Assembly (NCBI GenBank): GCA_001898385.1
Contig: MKTT01000050.1
Coordinates: 62,001-126,000, forward strand
Origin: Planctomycetales bacterium 71-10
Lineage (GTDB): Bacteria > Planctomycetota > Planctomycetia > Isosphaerales > Isosphaeraceae
DNA length: 64,000 bases
Direction of reading: 5' to 3'
Shown here: in pieces, positions 23,811 to 28,311 of the stretch
Position numbering within the stretch: the stretch's first letter is position 1
Layout of the letters: every line of letters starts with the position of its first letter
The notes under the pieces: model-generated
What the model was told of the DNA's origin: nothing
The model's input: only the letters and a program-made list of their open reading frames with translations
Databases searched by the model: none
Made by a program: the position numbers and the translations under genes

Positions 23811-25586
23811 TCACTCCGCCCCGACTCCCAGCCTCGCCCGCACGAGCCGGGGCAGGTGCTTCACGGGGATCGTCCCCTCGCCCAATACGGCCTCGTGATA
23901 CCGGGCCAGGTCGAACCCCTCCCCCATCTCGCGCTGGATCGACCGGCGCAGGCGCACGAACGCCGTGCGGCCGACGAAGTAGGTCGAGAGCTGGCACGAC
24001 GACTGCTTGGCCCGGATGATCTTCCCGGTCGCCTCGCCGTCGGTCTGGAACGCCCGGCCCACGAGCAGTTCGCGGGCCTCGTCGTCGGTCATGCCGTCGC
24101 AGTGCATCTTGCGGTCCAGGATCGCGTTGACGACGGCCCGCAGGTAGAACTTGAGCTGCTGGAGCCGCAACGGCAGGTCCCCCTCGCCGAAGCCCTGGTC
24201 GAGCATCATCTGCTCGGTGTAGACGGCCCAGCCCTCGGCGAACGTCCCGGACGACAGCACCTTGCGGATCGGGCTCGGGCAGCGGTTGCTGTATTCGAGC
24301 TGGACGTAGTGGCCGGGGTACGCCTCGTGGATCGTGAGGATCTGGAGCATCGCCCGGTTGTACTCGCGCAGGAGGCTCTCGGCGCGTTCGGGGGTCCAGT
24401 CGGCCGGGGGCGGGCTGATGGCGTACTCGCTGCCGCCGCGGGCGTCGAGCGGGGGCGCGGGGTTCAGGTAGGCCACCGAGTTGCCCCGCATGAACTCCGG
24501 CATCTCGATGATCCGGCACTGGTCGGGCTCGGGGAGGGCCAGGATCTTGCGGTCGCGGATGAAGTCCTTGATCCGGGCGACGGTCGCGCGGGCATCGTCG
24601 ACCAGGGTCTCGGCCGTGCCGTGGTCGTCGCCGATCCTCGCCAGGACGCGGCGGGTCATCTCGCGACGGCCGGCCTCGTCGTCGGGCGGCACGACCTCGC
24701 CGGGGAAGTAGCCGGCCCACAGGTGGCGGGCGAAGGCGGCCATCTCGGCCTCGACCCGCCTCGCCTCGGCCTCGGCCTCGGCGAGCACCTCGTCGGCCGT
24801 GATCCCGGCGTCCAGCTCGTAGTCGAGCTTCTTCACGAACTTCTCGCGGCCGATCCGCCACTCCTCGGTGCTGCGGGGGAGGACGTCCGACCTGAGGAAC
24901 TCGACGTAGGACTCCAGGTCGCCGGCCAGCTTCGCGGCGGCCTCGGCCAGGTCGCCCTCGCCGGGCTTGTCGCCGGCCAGGAGGAACAGGTCGTTCTTGT
25001 AGAAGGCGACGGCCCCCTCGGCCTGCCGGATCGCCGTCTCCACCTTCACGCGAGGGGCCCGGCCGATCGTCCGCCGCGCGACTTCCAGGATCCGCGGGGC
25101 TTCCTGGATGCGCCTGAGGGCGTTCCGCCGGTTGATCTCCTTCGGGAGCGTCGACTGGGTGAGCAGCAGGTAGACGCTGTTCGTGACGTAGTCGCCGTAG
25201 ACCCGCGGGTCCTCGCGGAAGGGGTCGAAGGTCTCGCGGAGCCAGATCGAGGCTTCGAGGCTCCGCCGGAAGATGTCCAGGTCCACGCGGCCGGCCGGGG
25301 TCAGCTTCGCGGGGTCGATCTCGCGGCCGAGGCGGTCGAGCGTCGCCTTCTGGAAATCGAGGTTCGACCGCCGGGCCTCGGGCGAGACGTCGTCCAGCCG
25401 GTCGTCGTGCGAGTGGTCGCCGAGGGCGGTGGCCGTGGCGGGCTCGCGGCGGAACAGCTCCTTCAGGTAGGCGTCGAAGGCGGCGTCCAGGCGGGCGTCC
25501 TCGGCACCGTCGTCGGCGAGCGTCGGCGCGGACGCGAGGAGGCAAGCGGCGAGGGCGGCGGCCTTCGCGAAAGGTCGGCGATTCAT
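23811..25586 (-). CDS. DUF885 family secreted metallopeptidase-like protein
   Basis: A 591-residue exported protein with a signal peptide ending at about residue 24 (SAPTLA). The body is helical and fits DUF885, a family related to zinc carboxypeptidases. The zinc-binding HEAYPGHY and the downstream EGWAVYTE, with its metal-ligand Glu, are both present in the last third. The length is normal for the family. It probably trims peptides in the periplasm; the substrate is unknown. It is a single gene that converges on the Gly/Tyr-rich protein gene and diverges from the histidine-phosphatase-like gene. Confidence 0.88.
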   Translation of the reverse strand: MNRRPFAKAAALAACLLASAPTLADDGAEDARLDAAFDAYLKELFRREPATATALGDHSHDDRLDDVSPEARRSNLDFQKATLDRLGREIDPAKLTPAGRVDLDIFRRSLEASIWLRETFDPFREDPRVYGDYVTNSVYLLLTQSTLPKEINRRNALRRIQEAPRILEVARRTIGRAPRVKVETAIRQAEGAVAFYKNDLFLLAGDKPGEGDLAEAAAKLAGDLESYVEFLRSDVLPRSTEEWRIGREKFVKKLDYELDAGITADEVLAEAEAEARRVEAEMAAFARHLWAGYFPGEVVPPDDEAGRREMTRRVLARIGDDHGTAETLVDDARATVARIKDFIRDRKILALPEPDQCRIIEMPEFMRGNSVAYLNPAPPLDARGGSEYAISPPPADWTPERAESLLREYNRAMLQILTIHEAYPGHYVQLEYSNRCPSPIRKVLSSGTFAEGWAVYTEQMMLDQGFGEGDLPLRLQQLKFYLRAVVNAILDRKMHCDGMTDDEARELLVGRAFQTDGEATGKIIRAKQSSCQLSTYFVGRTAFVRLRRSIQREMGEGFDLARYHEAVLGEGTIPVKHLPRLVRARLGVGAE

Positions 25587-25830
25587 GGGGTGGTTCCAGG
25601 GCGTGGCCGGCGACGCGGCCCGCGGGTCGGAATCTTGTCAAACGAGGGGCGGGATGGTAGAACGAGACGATACGACGGGAGGGGTTCACCCGTCAACCAA
25701 GGGGAGGTCCCGCGGTCGACTCGGTCCGGCTCCGGCCCGGATGCTCGCGAACCCGACCCCTCGGCCCGACCGGCCCGCCCCCCCGCCGGGACGACGACCG
25801 CGTCGCCCCCGCCGACCCCGACGAGAAACG

Positions 25831-26442
25831 ATGGCCGCGTCGATGTCATCGCAGGTCCTACTCATCCGCCCCGGGGCGACGCTCTACGACGAGCAGAACC
25901 GGGTCCAGGGCGTCCTCGACATCCCCCTGAGCGATCAGGGGCGGGTCGACGTCGACCGGCTGGCGGAACGGCTCGTCGCGCGCGAGCCCCACGCCCCCCT
26001 CTCGGCCCTCTACTGCGGGCCGGGCGAGAGCGTCGTCCGCACGGCCGAGGTCGTCGGCAAGGCCCTGGGCCTGCGGCCCAAGCGGATCGACGACTTCCGG
26101 AACCTCGACCAGGGCCTCTGGCAGGGGCTCCAGATCGAGGAGATCCGTCGCCGCAACACCCGCCTCTTCCGTCAGTGGATCGACGACCCTCGGACCATCC
26201 GGCCCCCCCAGGGCGAGACCATCGAGGAGGCCATGGACCGCATCCGCGCCGCGTTCCGGCCCCTCATCCGCCGCCACCAGGACGAGGCGTTCGGGCTGAT
26301 CGCCGGCGAGCCCATCGGCCGGCTCATCGCCGGCTACCTCAAGCGCGTCCCCCGGCTCCAGCTCGATGAATTCCTCCCGTGCTGCGGCTACGAGCAGATC
26401 GAGGTCCAGGCCGACCTGATCAACGGCCACGGCTCCCCTTGA
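25831..26442 (+). CDS. Histidine-phosphatase-fold protein lacking catalytic residues
   Basis: A 203-residue protein with the phosphoglycerate-mutase/histidine phosphatase fold, recognised by the run RVQGVLDIPLSDQGR and by LWQGLQIEEI. The hallmark RHG is RPG here (residues 13-15), so the phospho-accepting His14 is Pro. The SPLxR-like segment reads CGPGESVVRTAE, and the second catalytic His region reads LIAGEPIG (156-163) without His. All known family phosphatases need these residues, so this is probably a non-enzymatic binding protein. It lies 91 bp upstream of accD on the same strand and may be cotranscribed with it. ATG 25843 is an alternative start four codons later. Confidence 0.8.
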   Translation: MAASMSSQVLLIRPGATLYDEQNRVQGVLDIPLSDQGRVDVDRLAERLVAREPHAPLSALYCGPGESVVRTAEVVGKALGLRPKRIDDFRNLDQGLWQGLQIEEIRRRNTRLFRQWIDDPRTIRPPQGETIEEAMDRIRAAFRPLIRRHQDEAFGLIAGEPIGRLIAGYLKRVPRLQLDEFLPCCGYEQIEVQADLINGHGSP

Positions 26443-26533
26443 CAAGATCGCCGCGCCCGGGAACCCTTGAAACGCACCGGTTCGCGCCCGCCCCCCGCGC
26501 CCATCCCCGCTCGCCACAGGAGTACGATCGCCC

Positions 26534-27379
26534 ATGGCCGCCAAAGGAGGACCCCTGCACGCCTGGCATGGGCATTTCGAAGCGAAGCGCGTCCCCGAAG
26601 GGGTCTGGATGCGCTGCGACGGCTGCGGGGCGACCCTCTTCCGCAAGCAGGTGGAGCAGAACCTCAGCGTCTGCCCCGAGTGCAACCACCACATGCCCCT
26701 GACCGCCCAGGAGCGGATCCGACAGCTCCTGGACACCGACACGTTCGAAGACTGGTTCCCCGACCTCCGCCCCGCCGACCCCCTGGAGTTCGACGACCGC
26801 CGGCCCTACCCCGAGCGCGTCCGCGCCGAGCAGGCCCGCACCGGCCTGAACGAGGCCGCCCTGGTGGGCCAGGGGTTCATCAAGGGCCGCCGCATCGTCT
26901 TCGGCATCACCGACAGCGGCTTCATCATGGGGAGCATGGGCTCCGTCGTCGGCGAGAAGCTGACCCGGGCCGTCGAGGAGGCCACCCGCCAGAAGCTGCC
27001 GCTGGTCATCGTCTCCGGCTCCGGCGGCGGGGCCCGGATGCACGAGGGGATCTTCTCCCTGATGCAGATGGCCAAGGTCTCCACCGCCCTGAAGCGCTAT
27101 CGCGACGCCGGGGGCCTGTTCATCAGCGTGCTGACCCACCCGACGATGGGGGGCGTGGCCGCCAGCTTCGCCTCGCTCGGCGACGTCATCATCGCCGAGC
27201 CCAAGGCCCTGATCGGCTTCGCCGGCCCCCGCGTCATCGAGCAGACCGTCCGCGTCCAGCTCCCCGAGGGGTTCCAGACCAGCGAGTTCCACCTCCAGCA
27301 CGGCTTCGTGGACCGCATCGTCCACCGCCGCGACCTCAAGAGCCTCATCGCCCAGCTGATCGATTACACCACCCCCTGA
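26534..27379 (+). CDS. accD: Acetyl-CoA carboxylase carboxyltransferase subunit beta
   Basis: A 281-residue cytoplasmic subunit that, with AccA, transfers CO2 from carboxybiotin to acetyl-CoA to make malonyl-CoA for fatty acid synthesis. The N-terminal zinc ribbon is complete, with Cys28, Cys31, Cys47 and Cys50. The crotonase-fold domain carries the family's [11 protein letters not shown] oxyanion-hole loop and [11 protein letters not shown]. The length is typical. The closest upstream gene is the degenerate histidine phosphatase, which is not a usual partner. The convergent PIG-L gene begins only 11 bp after the stop. No accA, fabD or folC lies in the window. Confidence 0.96.
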
Positions 27380-27390
27380 ATCCTCGCGGT

Positions 27391-28176
27391 TCATGAGGCC
27401 GTCGTCCGTTTCCCCTTCCCGTCCTGGCCGACCAGTTCGAGCAGCAGGTCGTCGTGCGGGTAGGGGTGGCCGAGGTACTGGCGGAAGCCCTCGGCCTTCG
27501 CCACGCCGATCTCCCGGCCGCGGACCTCGCCCCACCGCGCCTGGCTCTCCAGGTACTCGTCGATCCCGTGCTGGCGCAGCAGCCAATTCCGCTGGCTGGC
27601 GTGGCACGCGAGCATCGCCCGCTTGGTCTCGAACACGTCCGTCACGTTGACGTGGAAGGCCACCGGCTGGGGACGGCCGTCGCGGTCGTTCCCCTCCAGG
27701 GAGTCGACGAAATACAGGTGCGGGATGGAATCCAGCGCCTTCGCGGGCTCCCACTGGCGGGTGGCGTAGTTCGGGCAACCGGCGGCGAAGCAGGCGTCGC
27801 GGACGAGCAGGCTGGTCATCTCGTGGTCGCAGATGTAGTCGACCGGCGGGGCCGTCAGGATGATATCGGGGCGGACGCGCCGGAGGGCCTCCGTGACCCG
27901 GCGGCGGGATTCGTCGTCGTTGAAGACGGCCAGGTCCCGGAACTCCAGGCAGAGGTAGTCGGCCCCGATCAGGTCGGCCGCCGCCTTGGCCTCCGCCCGG
28001 CGGATGGCGGCGATGGCCTCGGCGTCGTGCTCGGCGCTGCCGCAGTCGCCCGGGGTCATCGTCGCGATGGTGACGTGGTGTCCCGCGGCCCGCAGCAGGG
28101 CGAGCGTCCCCGCGCACTGGAACTCGACGTCGTCGGGGTGGGCGTGGATCGCGAGGATGCGCTTTTGCGTGTGCAT
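27391..28176 (-). CDS. PIG-L family deacetylase
   Basis: A 261-residue metal-dependent N-deacetylase of the PIG-L/LmbE family. The zinc motif AHPDD is at residues 12-16, and a second metal His lies in the VDYICDHEMTS segment. Members remove acetyl from GlcNAc-containing compounds, such as BshB in bacillithiol synthesis or glycolipid intermediates. BshB is possible, but nothing in the context fixes the substrate. I chose ATG 28176 because it starts directly before the conserved KRILAIHAHPDD. ATG 28224 would add 16 residues without homology or ribosome site. The gene converges on accD and diverges from lexA. Confidence 0.87.
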   Translation of the reverse strand: MHTQKRILAIHAHPDDVEFQCAGTLALLRAAGHHVTIATMTPGDCGSAEHDAEAIAAIRRAEAKAAADLIGADYLCLEFRDLAVFNDDESRRRVTEALRRVRPDIILTAPPVDYICDHEMTSLLVRDACFAAGCPNYATRQWEPAKALDSIPHLYFVDSLEGNDRDGRPQPVAFHVNVTDVFETKRAMLACHASQRNWLLRQHGIDEYLESQARWGEVRGREIGVAKAEGFRQYLGHPYPHDDLLLELVGQDGKGKRTTAS

Positions 28177-28311
28177 CGTTGATGGGTCCGAATCCGTCGA
28201 GGGCGTCCAGGAACCTACGGCCATGCTAGCCCCGGCGTGGGTTGTAAGTCAATGACGTTGTGAGACTTGGGGTTTGGTCGCGGGTCGGGTCGCGCGGGAA
28301 CTGAAAAATGT

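Follow-up and report, generated by a model that had tools for sequence, protein, structure and literature searches.

A conserved histidine phosphatase-like pseudoenzyme encoded beside accD in Planctomycetota, a candidate binding partner of acetyl-CoA carboxylase

Introduction

The locus described here raises the question of what is done by a protein that has the fold of a histidine phosphatase, lacks the catalytic residues of such enzymes and is encoded just upstream of accD, the gene for the carboxyltransferase beta subunit of acetyl-CoA carboxylase (ACC). For most bacteria, little is known about how the step that commits acetyl-CoA to fatty acid synthesis is controlled. For Bacillus, the available part of PMC5437119 likewise describes the control of ACC as poorly known.

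The locus lies in a stretch of 64,000 nucleotides from Planctomycetales bacterium 71-10 (Isosphaeraceae), hereafter the window, and the genus, family and class referred to below are those of this bacterium. The original prediction held that the protein is under selection but not as this kind of enzyme, and that its place before accD suggests a possible regulatory or binding role near fatty acid synthesis. Searches of open-licence PubMed Central papers brought up no account of planctomycetes in which a protein resembling histidine phosphatases is encoded next to accD or rpe.

Results

The open reading frame at 25831-26442 on the forward strand was confirmed and encodes 203 aa from its first ATG; the second ATG, at 25843, coincides with the alignment start of most relatives, and this start, chosen by comparison, gives the product of 199 aa from which residues are numbered here (Table 1). 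PF00300 (His_Phos_1) was its sole Pfam match (E 2.8e-28, 99.3 bits against a cut-off of 21.7), and it reached no curated NCBIfam cut-off, with scores of 78.5 against 350 bits for PspA, 71.2 against 162.9 for CobC and 79.9 against 326 for RNase H-acid phosphatase. An AlphaFold2 model built with 40 homologues (pLDDT 94.2, pTM 0.90) found its best PDB match by Foldseek in 4ij6_B (E 1.5e-14, TM 0.85), and the closest solved structures were histidine phosphatases, e.g. 4ij6 and 1h2e. The accD gene starts 91 nt downstream, preceded by an AGGAG at 26518-26522 that we read by eye as its putative ribosome site; a scan of 25500-27500 gave no terminators and a single promoter-like match, on the minus strand. 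AccA is encoded elsewhere.

Table 1. Features of the locus, in window coordinates
Feature	Coordinates	Strand	Details
DUF885 protein, divergent, at the place of rpe in many relatives	23811..25586	-	PF05960
Pseudoenzyme, histidine-phosphatase fold	25843..26442	+	199 aa; ORF, PF00300, AF2
R9-P10-G11 replacing RHG, nucleophilic His gone	25867..25875	+	read from sequence
D16 replacing pocket Asn	25888..25890	+	D in 82/91 His-less homologues
S63 replacing phosphate-binding SPLxR Arg	26029..26031	+	Arg in 0/91 His-less homologues
N87 replacing proton-donor Glu	26101..26103	+	N in 78/91, Glu in 11/91
G155-E156-P157 at second catalytic His region	26305..26313	+	E/D156 in 78/91, P157 in 78/91
accD, acetyl-CoA carboxylase carboxyltransferase beta subunit	26534..27379	+	281 aa; PF01039, PF17848, Zn_ribbon_ACC
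PIG-L family deacetylase, convergent with accD	27391..28224	-	PF02585

According to the available part of PMC12051542, the pocket of the Aquifex phosphatase HFP comprises R8, H9, N15, R58 and H149, with E82 as the likely proton donor; that of PMC3866925 gives the His of RHG as the catalytic His of the superfamily, and Arg57, Glu82 and His153 as catalytic in Rv2135c. An alignment with solved active members placed R9, P10, D16, S63, G155 and N87 of the window protein at the corresponding HFP positions; five of these six residues are changed and the first Arg (R9) alone is retained. The three changes named in the original prediction were all found in the sequence: RHG has become RPG, with P10 where the nucleophilic His is expected, the Arg of SPLxR is replaced by Ser, and the second His region reads LIAGEPIG (26296-26319), with G155 at the position of the His. 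That list was incomplete, as it left the changes of the proton-donor Glu and of the pocket Asn unmentioned.

Residues were counted in 117 distinct homologues after identical sequences had been merged; some of these rows had also gone into the profile used to align them. The RPG-type change and the other losses are a property of the protein family, since His10, Arg63 and His155 were all gone in 90 of the 91 distinct His-less members, whereas the first Arg was kept in 83. The proton-donor Glu, missing in the window protein, is yet present in a minority of the family (11/91). The single member with His155, L127 (L127:3932-4591), keeps this second His but neither the nucleophilic one nor the Arg of SPLxR. 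Among the distinct homologues linked to accD, His10 occurred in 0/89, Arg63 in 0/89 and His155 in 1/89 (again L127), and a chance substitution in one genome or a sequencing error was rejected on these counts. The full catalytic set (His10, Arg63, His155 and Glu/Asp87) was kept in all 26 His-bearing homologues of the same phylum, 24 of which also kept the pocket Asn; these homologues are the higher-ranked matches of searches with the window protein or its profile, and one of them, L136, is a paralogue within the window's own genome.

The gene is under purifying selection in the genus: its NG86 dN/dS was 0.08-0.19 (15 pairs, six genomes), and that of accD in the same comparison was 0.035-0.10. 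YN00 gave no value for 10/15 gene pairs and 15/15 accD pairs, and its five values (0.021-0.076, at dS of 1.0-3.5) were set aside. An open frame matching at E 1.2e-40 or better was present in 37/37 genomes of the family, and the altered state was seen alike in isolates and metagenome assemblies. RHG in close relatives, a case that would speak against the original prediction, was looked for and found in 0/77 loci (some genomes counted twice, from two collections). Together with the family-wide loss of the catalytic residues, these values uphold the view of a protein selected for something other than this enzymatic activity. A decaying pseudogene, or an artefact of alignment or assembly, was rejected on the dN/dS, the open frames and the absence of RHG; no intact-site copy was found at the locus in close relatives and no neutral evolution was seen, and, having found no point in favour of this explanation, we regard its probability as negligible.

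In a wider sample of the class, 184/297 genomes had a match at E 1e-15, among them 44 genomes of the family, with one family genome (G137, 83% complete) giving none. A search for close relatives returned 22 loci, all from Planctomycetota, and a search of the phylum added, among the matches listed, members outside the class. The His-less protein lay beside accD in 14 of the 20 loci fetched after the latter search; 12 of these 14 were outside the class and spanned eight family codes (f22, f23, f37, f53, f67, f76, f105 and f113), and two further loci of this kind outside the class, in G387 and G459, were recognised by coordinates. The distribution of the protein outside the class is patchy, and 20/20 accD loci picked there for diversity were without it, although they came from genomes mostly lacking a profile match and give no frequency. 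The protein was also absent from the 1.5 kb flank of accD in 13/13 examined genomes of f3, probably Gemmataceae, and from the accD loci of G041, G067, G071 and G081, which represent four other family codes of the class. In two f3 genomes without the protein, phosphoglycerate kinase is encoded directly before accD (L158:2485-3786 and L165:2418-3626).

A tree computed without the catalytic columns split 43 His-less rows from 25 His-bearing rows by one branch, with a modest support of 86/27 and in the presence of long branches; the 43 rows include L057 and L071, labelled 'acc' there though accD is not adjacent to them. This split favours a single origin of the His-less clade, without proving it. 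Long-branch members beside accD were found both in the class (L124:3914-4774) and outside it (L123:2641-3228).

The link with accD was persistent. The original prediction would have been contradicted by orthologues scattered without accD; instead, accD was found downstream on the same strand in 89/91 distinct His-less members, within 700 nt in 88 of them and at 1.8 kb in L053. The distance from the gene to accD had a median of 110 nt and a minimum of 3 nt, and no fusion with accD occurred among the 89 linked members. Of the set of 77 loci, in which several genomes appear twice, 75 have a same-strand accD downstream, 74 of them within 630 nt. The sole linked member with a gap above 700 nt, from G020, has a 459-codon frame with no Pfam match (L149:3-1379) between the His-less protein and accD. 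Seen from accD, the gene was upstream in 28 of 30 loci with DNA (all from the class, best-scoring); the two exceptions are L152, from G067, and L150, from G045, a genome that carries its copy (L057) at another place. The 28 homologues without accD in the fetched DNA, which for the His-bearing ones covered 1.3-4.0 kb downstream, were the 26 His-bearing homologues and two His-less ones, L057 and L071, in which the protein adjoins rpe (ribulose-phosphate 3-epimerase).

As a control we compared the flanking genes. In 20 loci from other genera of the family, accD, PIG-L, LexA, RNase H and DUF885 were present in 20, 15, 14, 10 and 7, respectively. A further 20 loci, selected by the phosphatase-like protein alone, came from the family's edge and from other families of the class; there the numbers were 18, 4, 3, 3 and 0. 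At 12 loci outside the class DUF885 was found in 1 and PIG-L, LexA and RNase H in 0, but these loci had been selected for an adjacent accD and therefore lend no support to the linkage. The linkage to accD persists longer than that to the window's other flanking genes.

The original prediction was right about accD as a conserved neighbour, but it overlooked that accD is one of two recurrent neighbours. The second is rpe. Of the 83 testable members, i.e. those with at least 1.2 kb of upstream DNA (8/91 fell below this), 59 have a same-strand rpe no more than 700 nt upstream; of the 83, 81 had accD and 57 had both genes. Detection relied on one Rpe sequence (E 1e-15, ORFs of at least 80 aa), and divergent copies may escape it. 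When 20 upstream proteins were scanned (same-strand ORFs of fitting size, out of 25 loci), 18 were Ribul_P_3_epim, one, in L118, was a KDPG aldolase and one, in L111, matched no family; the L118 gene (L118:3189-3902) encodes a KDPG/KHG aldolase in the place of rpe, upstream of the His-less protein. On these counts rpe, the His-less protein and accD, in this order, form the common arrangement of the class, of which the window holds a version without rpe. No rpe was found in the fetched DNA of 26/26 His-bearing homologues. On a quick tree with long-branch warnings the rpe label (66 with, 24 without, 1 not judged) changed 7 times, and well-supported branches force 3 of these changes.

In an alternative reading the protein would partner with Rpe, or with a pentose phosphate, as a ligand-sensing or scaffolding subunit in ribulose-phosphate epimerase metabolism, and accD would be a passenger of an ancestral rpe-accD pair. 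The spacing to rpe is tighter than that to accD, being 12 nt or less in 32/59 members and negative in 13 (an approximate measure, taken to where the aligned domain begins), and L057 and L071 retain rpe without accD. Directly upstream of the gene of the His-less protein, rpe is found at L011:4174-4953, L017:4132-5010, L056:6198-7004, L061:6107-6979 and other places, at some of which it abuts the gene or overlaps it by a few bases. Moreover, at loci outside the class that lack the protein, four of the five upstream genes examined were an rpe directly before accD (L202:2093-2791, L204:2210-2971, L213:2159-2959 and L218:1364-2323), so that rpe-accD is possibly the older gene pair and the place of the protein beside accD may be inherited. 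However, 24 of 90 judged members had no rpe within 700 nt (in L111 it lies at 991 nt), and all 24 keep accD. The window's genus belongs to this group: it has no rpe at the locus, and in 6/6 genomes the single rpe detected lies away from the gene with 39-43% identity to the linked type, which is absent from the genus; in the window genome this divergent rpe is at G000:C62:44138-44776 (42% identity, away from accD). Purifying selection on the protein is nevertheless strong in the genus. Besides, the loss of the second Arg and of both His would make phosphate binding unlikely in the type found in the class. We consider Rpe or a pentose phosphate a rather unlikely partner.

The same data bear on whether the protein is physically linked to either neighbour. 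It might have an unrelated function, its arrangement with rpe and accD being inherited and suited to co-expression. Co-expression alone can preserve old gene clusters, and the protein is found both with rpe minus accD and with accD minus rpe; on the other hand, distant loci of the class mostly lose the other flanks of the window while accD stays, as the flank control showed. The probability of such an unrelated function seems to us low, though not trivial.

Scaffold residues are strictly conserved, R20, G91, G95, G124 and R133 being invariant in 91/91 His-less members. In the class new residues have become fixed in the former pocket, with D16 in 28/30 rows and N87 and P157 each in 30/30, and the acid found at position 156 in most members should repel phosphate. 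These fixed residues, which are unlike random decay, would fit an enzyme with a different chemistry whose pocket (R9, T13, D16, R20, N87, E125 and E156) was rebuilt as a new active site. Against it, the rebuilt pocket is not family-wide: in the 13 rows from outside the class Glu87 occurs in 11 and Arg155 in 7, and none has an acid at 156. Nor was a new conserved set of His or Cys seen, and we find a new chemistry decidedly improbable. A model of the sub-type from outside the class (pLDDT 92.4) had the same PDB neighbours as the window protein, and the existence of two sub-types with different former pockets makes one conserved ligand unlikely. The segment 87-126 was tried as a conserved patch specific to the family and rejected, as it had been picked post hoc and 11/189 circular shifts reached its value.

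Discussion

Our results imply that the protein is, with high probability, a maintained non-phosphatase, and that it would represent a lineage within histidine phosphatase branch 1 that is no longer catalytic, having retained the fold and lost the phosphate-handling residues. The conserved scaffold, the lost catalysis, the two pocket types and the persistent linkage to accD together point to binding as its most likely function, the protein presumably binding a protein or a ligand instead of carrying out new chemistry. We tentatively favour a pseudophosphatase that acts by binding, most likely by regulating the carboxyltransferase of ACC or helping in its assembly, and would place the chance of this reading a little below even. 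Judging from the gene neighbourhood, the carboxyltransferase would be the best single candidate partner. The protein could plausibly bind or regulate AccD, by itself or in its complex with AccA; this partner, like the direction of any control, is something we infer. Several observations count against this role at ACC, namely that L057 and L071 place the protein beside rpe and not accD, that the f3 genomes and the accD loci picked for diversity outside the class have accD without the protein, that rpe can directly precede accD there in its absence, that PIG-L and LexA are also partly kept within the family, that the two sub-types differ in their former pockets, and that AccA is encoded elsewhere.

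A broader proposal joins the two recurrent neighbours. Here rpe, the pseudophosphatase and accD would form a control module in which the pseudophosphatase, by sensing a pentose phosphate or Rpe itself, reads the status of the pentose phosphate pathway and sets the activity of the carboxyltransferase, thus coupling this pathway to the supply of malonyl-CoA in an old bacterial lineage; the clades that lost the linked rpe would have retained the ACC-facing half of the module. We regard this module, the boldest of the readings, as improbable.

Encoded beside accD, and often beside rpe, in a whole class of Planctomycetota with gaps and in scattered lineages outside it, this pseudoenzyme is a concrete candidate regulator that can be tested by genetics. 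It further offers a neat example of enzymes that lost their catalysis, possibly once, and were retained for another job. Annotating such genes as 'phosphoglycerate mutase' or 'histidine phosphatase' would be misleading.

Among known systems, the nearest solved members of histidine phosphatase branch 1 are the PspA-type phosphoserine phosphatase of Hydrogenobacter thermophilus (4ij5/4ij6) and PhoE of Bacillus stearothermophilus (1h2e/1ebb). With members of this branch the window protein shares the fold, R9, T13, R20, G91-x-W93-x-G95, G124-E125 and R133 in a near full-length alignment; unlike the enzymes, it has the nucleophile His, the second His, the second Arg, the pocket Asn and the Glu donor changed.

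As a possible partner of ACC, the window protein can be set beside proteins of other families, and the reported control of ACC by such non-catalytic partners speaks for the role proposed here. BADC, an inactive relative of BCCP, is a non-catalytic partner of the heteromeric ACC of plant plastids; both are dead relatives of an enzyme part, but they belong to different families and homology is not expected. In Synechocystis, PII (GlnB) is said to bind BCCP as a signal protein acting on ACC, which would be a similar way of working through ACC binding, although the fold of PII is different and the subunit is another one. As far as the available part of PMC5437119 goes, YqhY of Bacillus subtilis, of the Asp23 family, is not itself a subunit of ACC but is proposed to control its activity, restraining it, and genetic evidence backs this; it resembles our protein as a proposed control from outside the complex and differs in its family. 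Finally, the plant CTI proteins, as described in the available part of PMC7712654, bind the alpha-carboxyltransferase (alpha-CT) and restrain ACC; they are plastid proteins of another family, and the likeness to the window protein would be that of a non-catalytic partner of a heteromeric ACC.
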